Below the pieces are notes generated by a model. It did no database searches. It saw nothing but the letters and a program-made list of their open reading frames with translations, and had not been told where the DNA came from. From assembly GCA_017355425.1 (NCBI GenBank), contig CP070233.1:908501-972500 (forward strand): DNA of 64,000 bases. Direction: 5' to 3'. Both the position numbers and the translations under genes were made by a program. Below, one piece after another: positions 56,619 to 64,000 of this stretch. Numbering within the stretch: position 1 is the first letter of the stretch; each line of letters starts with the position of its first letter. Source of the stretch: Dolichospermum sp. DET69. GTDB taxonomy: Bacteria; Cyanobacteriota; Cyanobacteriia; Cyanobacteriales; Nostocaceae.

Positions 56619-58949
56619 ATGAAATTACCAACACGTCTCCTAAAATCTCTCACTCTCTGTGTCTTAGCTTCTCTGCGTCAGATAAAAGCATCTAAAATAA
56701 ATAAAATTATTTTTTCTTTTATCTTGATCTCTTTCTTAGTGCGATTATGCCCTTATTTTGCACCTATTCATAGTATAGATATTGCCCAGCATCAATTAGC
56801 AATAGAGTTTACAGATCGTAATAATTTACCATTAGGAACTGTACTAACAAGTGATCAAGAAAGTACATCAGTTGTGAAATTAAATCAAGTTTCACCTCAA
56901 TTTATCAAAGCAATATTAGCGGCTGAAGATGGTAGCTTTTATCAACATGGCGCATTAGATTTTAAAGCGATTTTCCGGGCTATAAAAACAGCTATTGAAA
57001 CCAAAAAAATTGTTTCCGGTGCTTCCACAATTACGATGCAATTGGCGAGAATGTTAGATAATTCTCCGCGTACCGTAAATGCAAAATTAAAAGAAATTTG
57101 GTTATCTTGGCGATTAGCTGCGGGAATGACTAAAGATGAAATTCTCGCTGCTTATATTAATCGTCTCCCCATGGGGGGAAATATTTATGGAGTGGAAGCT
57201 GCGGCGCGAATTTACTTTTCTATTCCTGCAAGTGATTTAAACTTAGCTCAAGCTTCTATTTTAGCAGCAATTCCGAATAATCCCACTTATTTTAATCCTT
57301 ATCAATATCAAGAAAGATTACAACAAAGACAGAAATATGTTTTAAACAGAATGGTACAAGAAAAATATATTTTTGAGGCAGACGCACAACTTATATTCAA
57401 CGAGAAAATTATATTTAAACCCCGTCAACAGGGAATTATTGCTGCACCACATTTTTTATTTTGGTTAGCAACAAAAAACAATCCATTTAGCAAAGAATCA
57501 TCACCTATTCGCACAACAATAAATCGCCCTTTACAGCAATTTGTGGAAGCACAAGTAAAACAAGTAATTGCTTCTTTAAAAGCTAATAATGTCCATGATG
57601 CAGCAGCGGTGATAATTGACAACTCCTCTGGGGAGGTTTTAAGTTATGTCGGTTCGCCTGATTATTTTAATGATGTGCAATTAGGAAGAAATGATGGAGT
57701 CCAAGCTTTGCGTCAACCAGGTTCTACTTTAAAGCCATTTGTTTATGAATTAGCTTTAGAAAAAGGAGTAATTAGTCCTCATAGTATTTTGCCAGATGTG
57801 CCTACTCATTATGCAATTCCAGGAGCAAAATTATATAGTCCCACAGATTATACTAACAGCTTTCTTGGTCCTGTTAGAGTCAGAGTTGCCTTAGCAAATT
57901 CTTTAAATGTACCTGCTGTAAAAGTATTAGAAAAAGTGGGTGTAGAAACTTTTCTGAATCGGTTGCATGAGTTAGGATTTGCACATCTCAATCAAGGTGC
58001 TGAATATTACGGTTTAGGTTTGATTTTGGGAAGTGGTGAAGTGAATTTATGGGAACTCGCTAGGGCTTATTTAACTATGGCTAATGTGGGAAAAAATATA
58101 CCATTAGTAACTGTCTTGAATAGTTCTCAAATTTCCGGTTCTCAAATTTCAGTTTCCAGTCATTGGCAATTAATTATTGATATGTTAAGCGATCGCTATG
58201 CCAGATCAACAGCTTTTGGTGTAGACTCAGTGTTAAATTTGCCCTTTCCCGTCGCTGTTAAAACTGGCACTTCTTCAAATTATCGTGATACCTGGACAGT
58301 TGGCTTTAGCAGTGATTATACAGTAGCTACTTGGGTAGGTAATTTCAATGGTGAAGCCATGCGTCAGGTTTCCGGTGTCACAGGGGCTGCACCCTTGTGG
58401 AACAGAATCATGTTACATTTGCATGAACATCAAACACCCGCTGATTTTTTACTTCCAGAGGGCATGGTAAAATTACCAATCTGTGCGACTACAGGGTTAA
58501 AACCTACACCTAATTGTACTTCAGTAGTCCAGGAATACTTCTCTTTAAAAGATAAAAATGCTTATGGAAAATCTACGGATTTCCATTTATCACCTGTGTA
58601 TGATGAATGGTTAGCAAAACAACCACAATTGCATTTTAATCCTGATAAGTTCCAAATTATATCTCCTCATGATGGGGATTTATTCCTGTTGTATCCCGGT
58701 GAAAAAGAACAGCAAAAACTAGAATTTAAAACTAGTGGAACATTAAATCAGCCTGTGGACTGGTGGCTAAATGGTCAGCATTTATCTACAAAATCAACTA
58801 ATGGAATATTTTGGCATTTACGCCCTGGTAATTGGAAGTTAGAAGCTAGAAGTGGTAAGCTACACAACCAAATAAACTTTCAAGTCAAGTTAGGAAAAAT
58901 TCAACCTAAAAAAACAGGCTTTTCTGTAGCAAATCCCACCAAAGAATAG
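56619..58949 (+). CDS. pbpC: Penicillin-binding protein 1C (transglycosylase/transpeptidase)
   Basis: 776 residues, bifunctional class A PBP of the 1C type. Membrane anchor at about residues 29-46. The glycosyltransferase domain has ILAAEDGSFYQHGALDFKAI, GASTITMQLARML and INRLPMGGNIYGVEAA. The transpeptidase domain has active-site GSTLKPFVYE (S-x-x-K), LANSLNVPA (SxN) and AVKTGTSSNYRDTW (KTG). The C-terminal PBP1C domain (BiPBP_C) covers residues about 690-765. It faces the alpha-2-macroglobulin gene; the pair is thought to act in periplasmic defence and cell-wall repair. Confidence 0.94.
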   Translation: MKLPTRLLKSLTLCVLASLRQIKASKINKIIFSFILISFLVRLCPYFAPIHSIDIAQHQLAIEFTDRNNLPLGTVLTSDQESTSVVKLNQVSPQFIKAILAAEDGSFYQHGALDFKAIFRAIKTAIETKKIVSGASTITMQLARMLDNSPRTVNAKLKEIWLSWRLAAGMTKDEILAAYINRLPMGGNIYGVEAAARIYFSIPASDLNLAQASILAAIPNNPTYFNPYQYQERLQQRQKYVLNRMVQEKYIFEADAQLIFNEKIIFKPRQQGIIAAPHFLFWLATKNNPFSKESSPIRTTINRPLQQFVEAQVKQVIASLKANNVHDAAAVIIDNSSGEVLSYVGSPDYFNDVQLGRNDGVQALRQPGSTLKPFVYELALEKGVISPHSILPDVPTHYAIPGAKLYSPTDYTNSFLGPVRVRVALANSLNVPAVKVLEKVGVETFLNRLHELGFAHLNQGAEYYGLGLILGSGEVNLWELARAYLTMANVGKNIPLVTVLNSSQISGSQISVSSHWQLIIDMLSDRYARSTAFGVDSVLNLPFPVAVKTGTSSNYRDTWTVGFSSDYTVATWVGNFNGEAMRQVSGVTGAAPLWNRIMLHLHEHQTPADFLLPEGMVKLPICATTGLKPTPNCTSVVQEYFSLKDKNAYGKSTDFHLSPVYDEWLAKQPQLHFNPDKFQIISPHDGDLFLLYPGEKEQQKLEFKTSGTLNQPVDWWLNGQHLSTKSTNGIFWHLRPGNWKLEARSGKLHNQINFQVKLGKIQPKKTGFSVANPTKE

Positions 58950-59057
58950 AATATTATGGGTTGATGAATTTTCAATAATAACTTCAATTTTTTGTCCGGA
59001 ATTTTAGAAATCAACTTCGATAATGTAAATAGGATTGAAAGTTTCAAGAAAGTGAAA

Positions 59058-59210
59058 ATGGACATGAAGAATACACAAGAAACCAAGTCTGCTAAAAAGA
59101 AACAGTCGTTTCCTCTTGTTGATATTGGGACTGCTAAAGTACCAGTCCGCAAATCCAAAGTTAAAAATAAACAGTCTGAATCACTCAGCGACTGGGAACA
59201 CGCGAGTTAA
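59058..59210 (+). CDS. Small basic hypothetical protein (50 aa)
   Basis: The frame from ATG 59058 encodes MDMKNTQETKSAKKKQSFPL followed by VDIGTAKVPVRKSKVKNKQS and ESLSDWEHAS. Lysine-rich, no membrane segment. The frame is longer upstream, but ATG 59058 or 59064 after AAGAAAGTGAAA is the likelier start. Not recognised. Moderate doubt that it is expressed. Confidence 0.4.
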   Translation: MDMKNTQETKSAKKKQSFPLVDIGTAKVPVRKSKVKNKQSESLSDWEHAS

Positions 59211-59276
59211 TTAAATAGTAAATTGCTGTGCAATTTAACTTGAATTTTTACTAGATCTTTAATGCCTTCGTTATGG

Positions 59277-59996
59277 TTACTGAATTAAACCCGCAATGAT
59301 ATTAATACTCATGGCAACAATTACAGTATTAAAGAAAAAGGAGAGGATACTATGGAGTAAAGCTAATCTTCTCAGCGATTGCGAGGTAATTTGGACATCG
59401 GAAACTTGACTAGTCATCCCAATCACAAAAGAAAAATATAAAAAATCCCAGTAGTCAGGTTCAATATCTTCAGGAAAATCTAGTCCTCCAGCGTGAGAAT
59501 TAATTTGGGTTTTGTGATCCTGATAATATTGGTAAGCATAGTGTAGGGCAAAAATAGTGTGAACTAGTAACCATGATCCAATAATCGTTATTACTACTAG
59601 AATCAGATGGGGAATTACTATATTTGCATCCTTGCCTTTTGTGTCTTTTAAGATAAAAATAATCGCTAATATGCTGGCACAAGCAGCAGCAGTAATTAAA
59701 CTCAAAATTACTAAACGTCCTTGGTCTTGACTTTGAGCGTGACGGCGCATTTTTTTGGGGTTTGCTTGCACCATAAGCACCCAAGTTGAGCCTAAAAAAC
59801 AGATCATTCCCGCATTCCAGATGCAAAGAATCCGAGTGAATAAATTAAGCCAAGATGGCAGCAAAAACGATAATATTAAAGCAAATATGCCAGATAAAAT
59901 TAGTCGGAAGTGAACTCTCCATCGGTGAGGAAGTTTACTTTTAACCGGAGTTTGTGTAGACTTTTGAGGTGAAGTCATTATCGCTAGATTTGACAA
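59277..59996 (-). CDS. DUF1345 family membrane protein
   Basis: 239 residues with about five to six membrane helices. DUF1345 features: RVHFRLILSGIFALILSFLL, HLILVVITIIGSWLLVHTIF, ALHYAYQYYQ, and the end YWDFLYFSFVIGMTSQVSDV with LRRLALLHSILSFFFNTVIV. Function unknown. Confidence 0.88.
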   Translation of the reverse strand: MSNLAIMTSPQKSTQTPVKSKLPHRWRVHFRLILSGIFALILSFLLPSWLNLFTRILCIWNAGMICFLGSTWVLMVQANPKKMRRHAQSQDQGRLVILSLITAAACASILAIIFILKDTKGKDANIVIPHLILVVITIIGSWLLVHTIFALHYAYQYYQDHKTQINSHAGGLDFPEDIEPDYWDFLYFSFVIGMTSQVSDVQITSQSLRRLALLHSILSFFFNTVIVAMSINIIAGLIQ

Positions 59997-60082
59997 AATG
60001 CCAGTGAAGAGTGGATATTAATCTCACACTGGTTATATAGCTATTTTCGATTTCTATTTTGAGTTTATTTATGCTTATCTAC

Positions 60083-60355
60083 TTATTGAATTTTCCACGC
60101 CATTAGACCAAAAAGCACAAGCAGACCTAATCCTCTCCGAAAGTAATTAACGCCTTGAAATAATTCTTCCCAAGCCCAAGTGAACAAAGAACCAAAAGCT
60201 ATTAGATCTAATCCTAGATTAATTCTACCTGTTGTCACAACTATCTTTAATAAACTAGCCACAATCCAGACAATGAGGGGTAGATTGGGCATCTGAGCTA
60301 GAACAATGTTGCCTTCACTATCCCGAAATGCTTGATCAAACAATGTATTTTCCAT
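60083..60355 (-). CDS. Small membrane protein (90 aa)
   Basis: Starts at ATG 60355 (MENTLFDQAFRDSEGNIVLA) or three codons earlier (60364). Three hydrophobic segments: LPLIVWIVASLLKIVV, LGLDLIAFGSLFTWAW, LGLLVLFGLMAW. Not recognised by family, but a protein-like frame of a type common in cyanobacteria. Follows the lmo0937-like gene in the same direction. Confidence 0.65.
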   Translation of the reverse strand: MENTLFDQAFRDSEGNIVLAQMPNLPLIVWIVASLLKIVVTTGRINLGLDLIAFGSLFTWAWEELFQGVNYFRRGLGLLVLFGLMAWKIQ

Positions 60356-60515
60356 GAAATTCATCTCATCTAAAATGTGGCTAGAGACTAAGTTTATCTC
60401 TAATTTTATGATAGTTGTCTCCTAAGAGGGTTTGCAGATCACTAATTTAAGCTAAACATCGTGGCTTGTTTATGAGTTAAAGTTTTTCTGCTGACTAACT
60501 AATGCACAATCGTGA

Positions 60516-60671
60516 TTATACGATACGTCGTCCTATAAGTAAGTTGTAGACAATGCCAATTAGTGCCAAAACCAGAAGTAGGTGAATTAAGCTACCACCA
60601 ATGTGAATCGAGAATCCTAACAACCAGAGAACGAAAAGTACAACAACAGCAGTCCAAATAAGATTCAACAT
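60516..60671 (-). CDS. Lmo0937/DUF5670 family small membrane protein
   Basis: 51 residues: MLNLIWTAVVVLFVLWLLGF, SIHIGGSLIHLLLVLALIGI, VYNLLIGRRIV. Two membrane helices with the G..L.H.LL..A.I....L pattern and a basic C-terminus typical of the lmo0937 family, often stress induced. AAGGAAAA lies just before the ATG. Below the usual length cut-off of gene lists. Confidence 0.88.
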   Translation of the reverse strand: MLNLIWTAVVVLFVLWLLGFSIHIGGSLIHLLLVLALIGIVYNLLIGRRIV

Positions 60672-60953
60672 ATTTTCCTTTTCTATTTAGATAAAATAGA
60701 CTTTTTTGAAAAAGCCATTTGATTTTTAGGCTCCTCTATCAGAATAAGATAGAGGTATTAAAATATCATCTATAATTGGACATATATAAATAAATTGTAA
60801 ATAATGACAAGTATGAAGATTAACCTACTTAAAGCTAATTATTTTGGCTACGCTTTACTTGTAATCACAAATTTTAATACTAGTATACATTACGAAGTAA
60901 AATTCAGTATTTTTCCAGCTATGCGTTACCCAGGTAACATTGAATAAATTATT
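60672..60953. other. Intergenic region before the GxxExxY element
   Basis: Contains a perfect 8-bp hairpin CCTCTATC...GATAGAGG at 60733-60755 and otherwise AT-rich DNA. No gene seen. The element's left end starts at 60954. Confidence 0.5.
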
Positions 60954-61004
60954 GTCTGAACTATGATTTTAGGTGATTTTTTTGATTTTGATGATTTAAT
61001 TGTA
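60954..61004 (+). repeat. Left terminal repeat of the GxxExxY element
   Basis: GTCTGAACTATGATTTTAGG, then TGATTTTTTTGATTTTGATG and ATTTAATTG. It starts with the same GTCTGAACTATGATT as every array unit and is inverted relative to the right arms of the hairpins (their complement reads GTCTGAACTGTGATTTGTTT then GATTTTGGTGAT). It lies 38 bp before the gene. Confidence 0.75.
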
Positions 61005-61041
61005 GTAAACATTTAATTAAATCAAGTAAGGTGAACAAAAG

Positions 61042-61440
61042 ATGATAAATGAGAAGTATAAATACTCGGAACTTACCTCTAAAATTATTGGATGTGCTAT
61101 GATTGTGCATAAAACATTGGGTAATGGTTTTCAAGAAGTAATTTATCAAAGAGCATTAGCAATTGAAATGCAGTTATCAGGTATTTCCTTTGCAAGAGAA
61201 TTTGAAATGCCTATTTTTTACAAAAAAGAACAAATAGGAACAAGACGAGTAGATTTTTTAGTAGAAAGTATTATTTCGGTTGAATTAAAAGCAATAACTA
61301 AATTAGAAGACGTTCATTTTGCACAAGCAATTAACTATTTAGAGACATACAACCTTGAAATTGGGTTATTAATTAATTTTGGTGAAACCAGTTTGAACTT
61401 TAAAAGACTAACTCACAAGAAATATCAGTCTGAACTATGA
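61042..61440 (+). CDS. GxxExxY family protein (PD-(D/E)XK-like)
   Basis: 132 residues. The name motif is GFQEVIY at residues 29-35, in LGNGFQEVIYQRALAIEM. A nuclease-fold core follows: RRVDFLVE (Asp71) and VELKAI (Glu81, Lys83), then FAQAINYLETYNLEIGLLIN and FGETSLNFKRL. All catalytic-type residues are present, so it may be an active nuclease. The family is widespread, of unknown function, and commonly bordered by repeats. Its last nine codons (THKKYQSEL) are also the start of every unit of the downstream array. Confidence 0.9.
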   Translation: MINEKYKYSELTSKIIGCAMIVHKTLGNGFQEVIYQRALAIEMQLSGISFAREFEMPIFYKKEQIGTRRVDFLVESIISVELKAITKLEDVHFAQAINYLETYNLEIGLLINFGETSLNFKRLTHKKYQSEL

Positions 61441-63124
61441 TTCTTGTGATAAAGATGATTTTGATGATTTATTTTAAAACACAATCTAATCATCTTTATC
61501 ACCAAAATCAAACAAATCACAGTTCAGACAATTTCATCATCTCACTCACAAGAAATATCAGTCTGAACTATGATTCTTGTGATAAAGATGATTTTGATGA
61601 TTTATTTTAAAACAAAATCTAATCATCTTTATCACCAAAATCAAACAAATCACAGTTCAGACAATTTCATCATCTCACTCACAAGAAATATCAGTCTGAA
61701 CTATGATTCTTGTGATAAAGATGATTTTGATGATTTATTTTAAAACAAAATCTAATCATCTTTATCACCAAAATCAAACAAATCACAGTTCAGACAATTT
61801 CATCATCTCACTCACAAGAAATATCAGTCTGAACTATGATTCTTGTGATAAAGATGATTTTGATGATTTATTTTAAAACACAATCTAATCATCTTTATCA
61901 CCAAAATCAAACAAATCACAGTTCAGACAATTTCATCATCTCACTCACAAGAAATATCAGTCTGAACTATGATTCTTGTGATAAAGATGATTTTGATGAT
62001 TTATTTTAAAACAGAATCTAATCATCTTTATCACCAAAATCAAACAAATCACAGTTCAGACAATTTCATCATCTCACTCACAAGAAATATCAGTCTGAAC
62101 TATGATTCTTGTGATAAAGATGATTTTGATGATTTATTTTAAAACACAATCTAATCATCTTTATCACCAAAATCAAACAAATCACAGTTCAGACAATTTC
62201 ATCATCTCACTCACAAGAAATATCAGTCTGAACTATGATTCTTGTGATAAAGATGATTTTGATGATTTATTTTAAAACAAAATCTAATCATCTTTATCAC
62301 CAAAATCAAACAAATCACAGTTCAGACAATTTCATCATCTCACTAATAAGAAATATCAGTCTGAACTATGATTCTTGTGATAAAGATGATTTTGATGATT
62401 TATTTTAAAACACAATCTAATCATCTTTATCACCAAAATCAAACAAATCACAGTTCAGACAATTTCATCATCTCACTCACAAGAAATATCAGTCTGAACT
62501 ATGATTCTTGTGATAAAGATGATTTTGATGATTTATTTTAAAACACAATCTAATCATCTTTATCACCAAAATCAAACAAATCACAGTTCAGACAATTTCA
62601 TCATCTCACTCACAAGAAATATCAGTCTGAACTATGATTCTTGTGATAAAGATGATTTTGATGATTTATTTTAAAACAGAATCTAATCATCTTTATCACC
62701 AAAATCAAACAAATCACAGTTCAGACAATTTCATCATCTCACTCACAAGAAATATCAGTCTGAACTATGATTCTTGTGATAAAGATGATTTTGATGATTT
62801 ATTTTAAAACACAATCTAATCATCTTTATCACCAAAATCAAACAAATCACAGTTCAGACAATTTCATCATCTCACTCACAAGAAATATCAGTCTGAACTA
62901 TGATTCTTGTGATAAAGATGATTTTGATGATTTATTTTAAAACAGAATCTAATCATCTTTATCACCAAAATCAAACAAATCACAGTTCAGACAATTTCAT
63001 CATCTCACTAATAAGAAATATCAGTCTGAACTATGATTCTTGTGATAAAGATGATTTTGATGATTTATTTTAAAACAAAATCTAATCATCTTTATCACCA
63101 AAATCAAACAAATCACAGTTCAGA
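61428..63124. repeat. 13-copy tandem array of a 133-bp hairpin-forming unit
   Basis: Units start (at GTCTGAACTATGATT) at 61428, 61561, 61694, 61827, 61960, 62093, 62226, 62359, 62492, 62625, 62758, 62891 and 63024: exactly 133 bp each, no indels. Each unit is a 102-bp inverted repeat plus a 31-bp spacer (AATTTCATCATCTCACTCAC then AAGAAATATCA). The hairpin has outer stem GTCTGAACT/AGTTCAGAC, one mismatch, TGATT/AATCA, an asymmetric internal loop, a perfect 15-bp inner stem GTGATAAAGATGATT, and a 27-base loop. Units differ at one loop base (C, A or G after AAAACA) and, before units 8 and 13, in the spacer (CTAATAAG for CTCACAAG). Not a CRISPR. Confidence 0.95.
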
Positions 63125-63125
63125 T

Positions 63126-63245
63126 GTTATAATTGGCGAGTGGGTAGAAAATCAGGGTTATAAAAATGCAAAATGGCGACCAAAATCTGATTATTTTGAT
63201 GATTTATATACTTGTTGTCTATTGGACAATCAATCGGATGATTGA
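63126..63245 (+). pseudogene. 3' remnant of a gene interrupted by the hairpin array
   Basis: Directly after the last array base the frame reads VIIGEWVENQGYKNAKWRPK then SDYFDDLYTCCLLDNQSDD and TGA, protein-like sequence with no start of its own. Upstream in frame it runs into the array. Its stop overlaps the next gene start by 8 bp, so it was the first gene of an operon. The N-terminal part is not seen at the other side of the element (before 60954). Confidence 0.6.
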
Positions 63246-63876
63246 ATCTATAGACGATATAGTAAAAGTTGATTTCCAAAAAGGTGCTATTGATGATCAA
63301 TTGAAAGAACAAAATCTGCAAGATACAGTAGGTATTTCTTTTAAAACAAATACTTATGGTTTGGATAAAGTGGAAGATGATCTGAAAGAATTATCAATGA
63401 GTATTGAAAATAAATCAGAGAGTATTGCTATATATGTTGACTGGGATAATAGTTCCTTCGTCGTTGAACATACCCAGCAGTCGCGTCGAGTGATTCGCAA
63501 ATCTCCAGATTTAACCCGCGATTTAGCCATATCCCAAGTTCCAACAATTATTGCTCCTAAAAAGACAATTTCTGAAAATGTCACCGCAGAAGATGTTTTT
63601 CAAAGAGATAAAGATTCAGGTATTTATAAACCAGCTTCACCTTTAATTAATATTGCTGCTGTTAAAAAGGATGATAAGAAAAAGAAGTTATACAAAGACT
63701 TTATAGATGGTAAAAAAGATTTGGAATTTTCATTACAACTGGTGCTGCGAATTTCCGAAATGAGAGTCGGTATTGCGCCGGGGATAAATGTTCCCCCAGT
63801 ATCAATTATTAATTGTCCTTTTACTATTAAAAAGCTCCCTTGGACCTATGCTCTACCTTGGAATAAGAAAAAGTGA
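63238..63876 (+). CDS. Hypothetical protein (212 aa)
   Basis: Start ATG 63238 (MIESIDDIVKVDFQKGAIDD), overlapping the preceding remnant's stop by 8 bp; a TTG-type longer start at 63166 is an artefact of another frame. Soluble; it includes SESIAIYVDWDNSSFVVEHT, RVIRKSPDLTRDLAISQVPT, KKKKLYKDFIDGKKDLEFSL and RISEMRVGIAPGINVPPVSI. Not recognised. Its translation may once have depended on the interrupted upstream gene. Confidence 0.65.
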   Translation: MIESIDDIVKVDFQKGAIDDQLKEQNLQDTVGISFKTNTYGLDKVEDDLKELSMSIENKSESIAIYVDWDNSSFVVEHTQQSRRVIRKSPDLTRDLAISQVPTIIAPKKTISENVTAEDVFQRDKDSGIYKPASPLINIAAVKKDDKKKKLYKDFIDGKKDLEFSLQLVLRISEMRVGIAPGINVPPVSIINCPFTIKKLPWTYALPWNKKK

Positions 63877-63917
63877 TTTGCACGTAACACTACACAGAAT
63901 CCAATTAAAGGTAAACT

Positions 63918-64000
63918 AGGAAAGGAGAGAGTAGGCGTAGGCAGTTGCAGATTAGTCATTAAGACTAGTTTGAGGAAAGTCCGGGCCCCCGAAAGACCAG
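63918..64000 (+). ncRNA. rnpB: RNase P RNA (rnpB), 5' part cut by window end
   Basis: AGGAAAGGAGAGAGTAGGCG marks the cyanobacterial rnpB 5' end, and GAGGAAAGTCCGGGCCCCCG followed by AAAGACCAG is the conserved CR-I region. The P3 region ATTAGTCATTAAGACTAGT lies between. RNase P RNA processes tRNA 5' ends. The rest lies outside the window. The exact 5' end is approximate. Confidence 0.92.

Follow-up and report, generated by a model that had tools for sequence, protein, structure and literature searches.

The 64,000-nucleotide stretch of the Dolichospermum sp. DET69 genome analysed here (contig CP070233.1, positions 908,501 to 972,500; hereafter the window) carries near its right end a GxxExxY gene that lies between inverted termini and is followed by 13 hairpins with an exact spacing of 133 bp. 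We consider it probable, at roughly 0.6 for the explanation as a whole, that this gene and its termini form a small element that spreads horizontally, that gene-less hairpins are its derivatives, and that breakage at the terminus founds the hairpin arrays. Comparisons between genomes and loci show that the terminus is shared, that hairpins and arrays exist, that there is a clean empty site, that the two arms covary and that array edges fall at the terminus.

The gene (61042..61440, + strand) encodes a protein of 132 aa, which scores 135.1 bits against TIGR04256 (cut-off 35) and 131.7 bits against PF13366 (cut-off 22). Upstream, the left terminus TGTCTGAACTATGATT occupies 60953..60968 (+) and continues into TGATT-rich left-arm sequence as far as about 61005; in the window this 5′ hairpin lacks its returning arm, which another genome of the genus, G011, possesses. 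Tandem Repeats Finder places the array at 61411..63124 (+), with a period of 133, 12.9 copies and a 98% match. The array starts inside the last codons of the gene, and the terminus GTCTGAACTATGA supplies both the end of the protein (SEL) and its stop codon. A first reading made from the letters of this stretch alone (the sequence-only reading) had described the gene, the upstream terminus, the 13 hairpins and the start of the first unit in the same way, and the profile scores and repeat detection agree with it.

The first hairpin, 102 nt long, runs from GTCTGAAC to GTTCAGAC at 61428..61529 (+), and the last (13th) lies at 63024..63124 (+), with a final base unlike that of the other copies. Folding of 61428-61529 as RNA gives −33.1 kcal/mol on the + strand and −40.6 kcal/mol on the − strand, with z about −7.6 on both strands and none of 200 shuffles equally good; as DNA, for a stretch shifted by 2 nt, z is −5.8 and −6.6. 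The hairpin proposed from the sequence is thus confirmed at its full length, with 32 pairs in the + strand structure instead of the approximately 29 first counted. The 12 complete units in the window vary at one loop base (C/A/G) and in a short linker stretch (CTCAC or CTAAT). The first linker (61530..61560, +, 31 nt) is of mixed origin: about 17 nt resemble the 3′ end of the gene, and the remaining 14 nt or so, AATTTCATCATCTC, come from another flank and partly match the end of an open reading frame (ORF) that reaches the array of G013, a separate draft genome of the genus, from the opposite side. The idea that the array grew from the gene's own 3′ end therefore holds for the gene-like part of the linker and not for the rest. 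In G013, one contig starts within the hairpin that follows the gene, and a second breaks off in two tandem units whose linker is homologous, which speaks against the array being an assembly artefact, as far as draft contigs can be compared.

The focal site was read between two flank keys in the same-genus genomes, of which 15 of 16 (the window's own included) have the downstream flank. In G008 and G014 the site is empty: within 49 bp the left flank joins directly to TATGTTACC, the sequence that follows the right terminus in occupied strains, and the gap is bounded by the termini. No target-site duplication is found when the empty sites of G008 and G014 are compared with occupied sites such as that of G001. 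Whether these empty sites are pre-insertion sites or products of precise loss, the moving unit would in either case end at the termini. The gene is intact at the site in G000, G011 and G006; the 3′ hairpin is single in G011, present as two copies with a different unit in G006 and amplified to 13 in the window, as had been proposed. Elsewhere the element is decayed or displaced: the gene is broken by other inserts in G005 and truncated in G004; it is gone with both ends kept in G012, G001, G007 and G003; the right end alone is left, adjoining other DNA, in G002 and G009; and in G015 a single contig holds both the gene and the right flank, separated by about 90 kb. G010 gave no match to the right key, and the flank is absent from G013.

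Another hairpin (L068:5666-5755) can be followed in the same manner. Among the 15 other strains read, it is present in G013, G005, G004, G011, G002, G009, G015 and G006, in some of them with local duplicates that include flank, and absent in G003, G007, G012, G001, G010 and G008, the last with another insert; in G014 its flank is deleted. Its left flank holds other inserts, and the boundary is clear at the right only.

The same ends recur far outside the cyanobacteria. A scan of a genome collection gave at least 578 confirmed relatives of the protein, of which we used the best 80 (loci L131-L210); these are 70-90% identical and mostly from Bacteroidota, many of them from metagenome bins and others from isolates (Runella zeae, 85%), and G011 is one of them. 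GTCTGAA or TTCAGAC is found at most 400 bp from the gene on its upstream side in 52 of the 80, on its downstream side in 48 and on both in 41. Under a two-ended rule (both ends within 130-150 bp, one mismatch allowed), terminal inverted repeats enclose the gene in 47 of the 80 relatives, compared with 2 of 1,901 random places in the same loci, and they enclose the focal element in G011 too. Twenty of these 47 elements have a total length of 454-473 bp. Together with the clean empty site, this search for the terminus beside other GxxExxY genes bears out the earlier suggestion that gene and inverted termini make up a small element. The two arms covary; this would be consistent with a stem, with a symmetric protein site or with one arm being corrected from the other. 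By longest shared string, the flanks of the 47 elements contain no repeat of constant length, with a lone 15-nt case (L140). No match was found in phages, and 7 of 72,556 plasmid records gave one, the best at 65%.

At the 80 loci, the closest long ORF usually shares the strand of the gene, upstream in 62 of 64 cases and downstream in 66 of 77. In 9 of the 47 elements the TGA of GTCTGA is the exact stop codon of the upstream ORF (9 elements have no such ORF), and in 9 an ATG stands one base past the right terminus (20 without such an ORF). The elements therefore often sit between operon genes, leaving them unbroken. In Bacteroidota and others they are often found inside restriction-modification operons: family matches, counted without a control set, include Methylase_S (14) and EcoR124_C (8) among 64 upstream proteins scanned, and HSDR_N (7), RhuM (7), Eco57I (6), Methylase_S (5) and HsdM_N (4) among 77 downstream proteins scanned.

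Within the host genome (6.04 Mb) the hairpins are dispersed as many gene-less copies. The terminus pattern TGTCTGAACTNTGATT, with up to two mismatches, has 684 matches, as against 18 for the reversed pattern used as control. The genome has two GxxExxY genes; the second is flanked by another terminus spelling, TGTCTGAATCAGGAT (675 matches, control 0), and is adjoined by a small array with that spelling (L063, 81 bp × 3.4). By comparison, either terminus lies within 250 bp on both sides of 154 of 40,000 random 400-bp segments, drawn from an even sample of 20 stretches of 20 kb. When Tandem Repeats Finder was run on 24 loci picked from the terminus matches, at least 16 places besides the focal one proved to hold arrays with a minimum of three units. 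Their periods range from 42 to 159 bp, and the two longest comprise 55 units of 67 bp and 41 units of 92 bp; two further loci hold two-unit repeats. The arrays at those 16 or more places have no neighbouring GxxExxY gene. Arrays lacking the gene were what the sequence-only reading had named as evidence against its proposal, and the genome largely provides that evidence: the array beside the second gene speaks for the suggested tie between array and gene, which is otherwise not supported. In some arrays the repeated unit is a single arm (44 bp in L078, 42 bp in L083), and a hairpin is therefore not required for an array.

Copy number was also compared between strains, as proposed. Terminus matches number 684, 194, 63, 56 and 51 in the five same-genus genomes whose first-type gene is intact, and 56 to 14 in the other eleven (controls 8 to 18 across the 16), gene absence in the eleven being judged among the matches listed and the counts taking no account of strain relatedness. 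The two groups overlap slightly.

An indication of how arrays begin comes from their edges. Of the array blocks measured, 22 in all, 14 have an edge no more than 3 bp away from the outer end of a terminus (8 at the left, 6 at the right), where 3.9 would be expected if edges fell evenly along the unit. These blocks come from 19 places, the window and 18 further loci. Rows that were short, matched poorly or gave overlapping multiples or sub-periods were left out, as were both rows of L063, with the second spelling; L068, L073, L084 and L085 contributed no block. Matches were judged by eye from the contexts, in which the last terminus is often cut short. Six blocks (L065, L069, L086, the window, L064 and the second block of L086) break at TG|TCTGAAC or its mirror image. 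Breakage at the terminus can be inferred because edges fall there beyond expectation. For later growth, adjacent units resemble each other more closely than widely separated units do in L078 (p 0.0005), and not clearly so in L071, L072 and L083; L067 has four units only, and L070 and L082 were dropped because indels broke the register. Taken together, these data suggest that terminus breakage founds arrays and, more weakly, that ordinary repeat expansion then enlarges them.

The GxxExxY protein, which may make such breaks, is predicted to have a PD-(D/E)XK fold with Cas4 as its nearest kin, placing it by prediction among the nucleases of the Cas4/RecB branch, whose active-site motif is D, ExK, QxxxY. 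All three parts of the motif are found in GxxExxY proteins: in 80 aligned proteins D71, K83, Q95 and Y99 are invariant and E81 is nearly so. A sequence search of the PDB with the 80-protein profile gave no matches, the window protein has no match in PADLOC, and no transposase family was matched, PF13366 being the sole gene inside the element. The word GxxExxY does appear in the open-access literature, for instance in the accessible portions of PMC8934634, without bearing on these elements; searches of that literature gave no paper on the function of GxxExxY genes, and those with terminus motif strings gave unrelated papers among the matches listed.

In the explanation we favour, the simplest element would be an inverted repeat, a GxxExxY gene and a second inverted repeat, together about 460 bp, spread horizontally. 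A gene-less derivative, the hairpin of two arms, would have multiplied in this Anabaena lineage much as REPINs relate to RAYT genes. In the window, one hairpin at the 3′ end of the gene would have been duplicated, taking along about 17 bp of gene sequence and some 14 bp from another flank, and would have grown to the 13 units. Arrays would most likely be founded where the terminus is broken or nicked, near TG|TCTGAAC, and then be enlarged and homogenised by slippage or unequal exchange. The GxxExxY protein presumably makes the break and moves both element and hairpins. A wider proposition, which we put forward tentatively and hold to be less likely than the account of this locus, is that GxxExxY elements form a class of mobile DNA whose sole protein, a Cas4-like nuclease of about 130 aa, recognises and cuts its own GTCTGAAC ends, and that these cuts found the cyanobacterial arrays.

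Several observations weigh against this explanation. The activity of the protein is a prediction, and the empty site can also be a precise deletion. The two-ended rule fails in 33 of the 80 relatives. In 24 genomes reached through these relatives, terminus counts mostly stay close to those of the control, and wide hairpin spread is therefore special to few lineages. Copy numbers overlap between strains with a broken gene (56 in G005) and an intact one (51 in G015), and the strains are not independent; the second spelling, moreover, is frequent in all 16 genomes (56 to 675) and therefore does not track gene presence. Eight of the 22 array blocks have no edge at the terminus, and the window itself fits at its right edge only.

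One alternative is that the hairpins are old dispersed repeats, all arrays having been made by slippage or unequal recombination with no involvement of the GxxExxY protein. Arrays far from any GxxExxY gene, the one-arm arrays, the likeness of adjacent units in L078 (though not clearly in the other three loci) and the separate local duplications including flank in G006, G011 and G015 all suit such passive expansion. It leaves the scattering of the hairpins unexplained, however, and the excess of edges at the terminus needs a special site; we regard it as rather unlikely. Still less probable is that GxxExxY serves restriction operons as a functional accessory gene, its ends acting as RNA (by supplying a stop codon, or as a processing or insulation stem) and its spread being that of the operons. 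The restriction neighbours on both sides, their common strand, the nine upstream stop codons and an arm covariation that fits a stem speak for it, but many neighbours are unrelated to restriction, the two neighbour genes tested in the window have no family match, and the gene-less Anabaena hairpins would be unexplained. Finally, another host transposase, such as a Y1 enzyme (RAYT or IS200-type), could move the hairpins with GxxExxY as a passenger. The genome has 16 Y1_Tnp matches, and REPINs have been proposed to move in this way in the accessible part of PMC3116915; neither terminus spelling, however, lies within about 1.5 kb of any of the 16 Y1 loci, Y1 being the only transposase family covered, and this is the most improbable of the alternatives.

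Compared with known systems, the element favoured here resembles RAYT/REPIN, with an unrelated enzyme; in RAYT/REPIN systems, according to the part of PMC3116915 available, a gene is flanked by hairpin repeats, many copies are gene-less, some form tandem arrays and different repeat spellings accompany different gene copies. All of these traits recur here. It differs in that the flanked gene (PF13366) encodes a PD-(D/E)XK nuclease-like protein and not a Y1 (HUH) transposase, in arrays of up to 55 units, and in having both a gene enclosed by inverted ends and a clean empty site; what is new is the enzyme, together with the large arrays. Many insertion sequences make no target duplication. With insertion sequences and their miniature inverted-repeat transposable elements the element shares a single gene enclosed by inverted ends, derivatives that keep the inverted repeats without the gene, and the focal empty site; unlike them it has no match to a transposase family, no target duplication at the empty site and a short form of only about 460 bp. 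In contrast to Cas4/RecB-type nucleases, GxxExxY stands alone, without CRISPR or helicase partners in the window, and is tied to DNA ends of its own. If the wider proposition were true, elements of about 460 bp would be among the smallest self-mobile elements, the tandem hairpin arrays that fragment draft cyanobacterial assemblies would have one cause, and repeats of several phyla would be united as one kind of element. GxxExxY genes are common. The gene has a terminus of its own, strains occur that possess or lack either of the two, and a clean empty site exists, which makes nuclease-driven mobility directly testable.

Heterocyst-forming cyanobacteria are also rich in short tandemly repeated repetitive (STRR) heptamers, whose 7-bp units differ from the 133-bp units here and which in this genome flank genes for 23S-intervening proteins (PF05635). 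At nine PF05635 loci of this genome (L122-L130), heptamer runs stand on both sides in five, compared with 0.08% of random positions, and by analogy with GxxExxY the heptamer repeats of cyanobacteria may represent the termini of PF05635 gene elements. PF05635 genes were rejected as further partners of the present terminus, which is lacking within about 1.5 kb on each side at eight of the nine loci and forms a cluster at the far end of the flank at the other. The Anabaena WA102 genome paper (PMC4907049) treats tandem repeats and, in the portion available, makes no mention of a GxxExxY hairpin array.

A few further observations concern the surroundings of the locus. An Rfam scan of 58000-64000 matched the hairpins to microRNA models only, far below the gathering scores, and these assignments were discarded. 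The window's downstream flank was not found in the draft genome G013; on its contig 287 (L093) the homologous array borders another region, in which an ORF stops at the TGA of the terminus, a difference that may reflect rearrangement or draft assembly. Between a conserved ORF and the left terminus, 59211-60952 (about 1.7 kb) holds small reverse-strand ORFs; the portion nearest the element is common to G013, and parts of it lie elsewhere in G009, G006 and G002. Directly behind the ORF that follows the array, the start of an RNase P RNA gene (RF00010) occupies 63928-64000, where it is cut by the end of the window.
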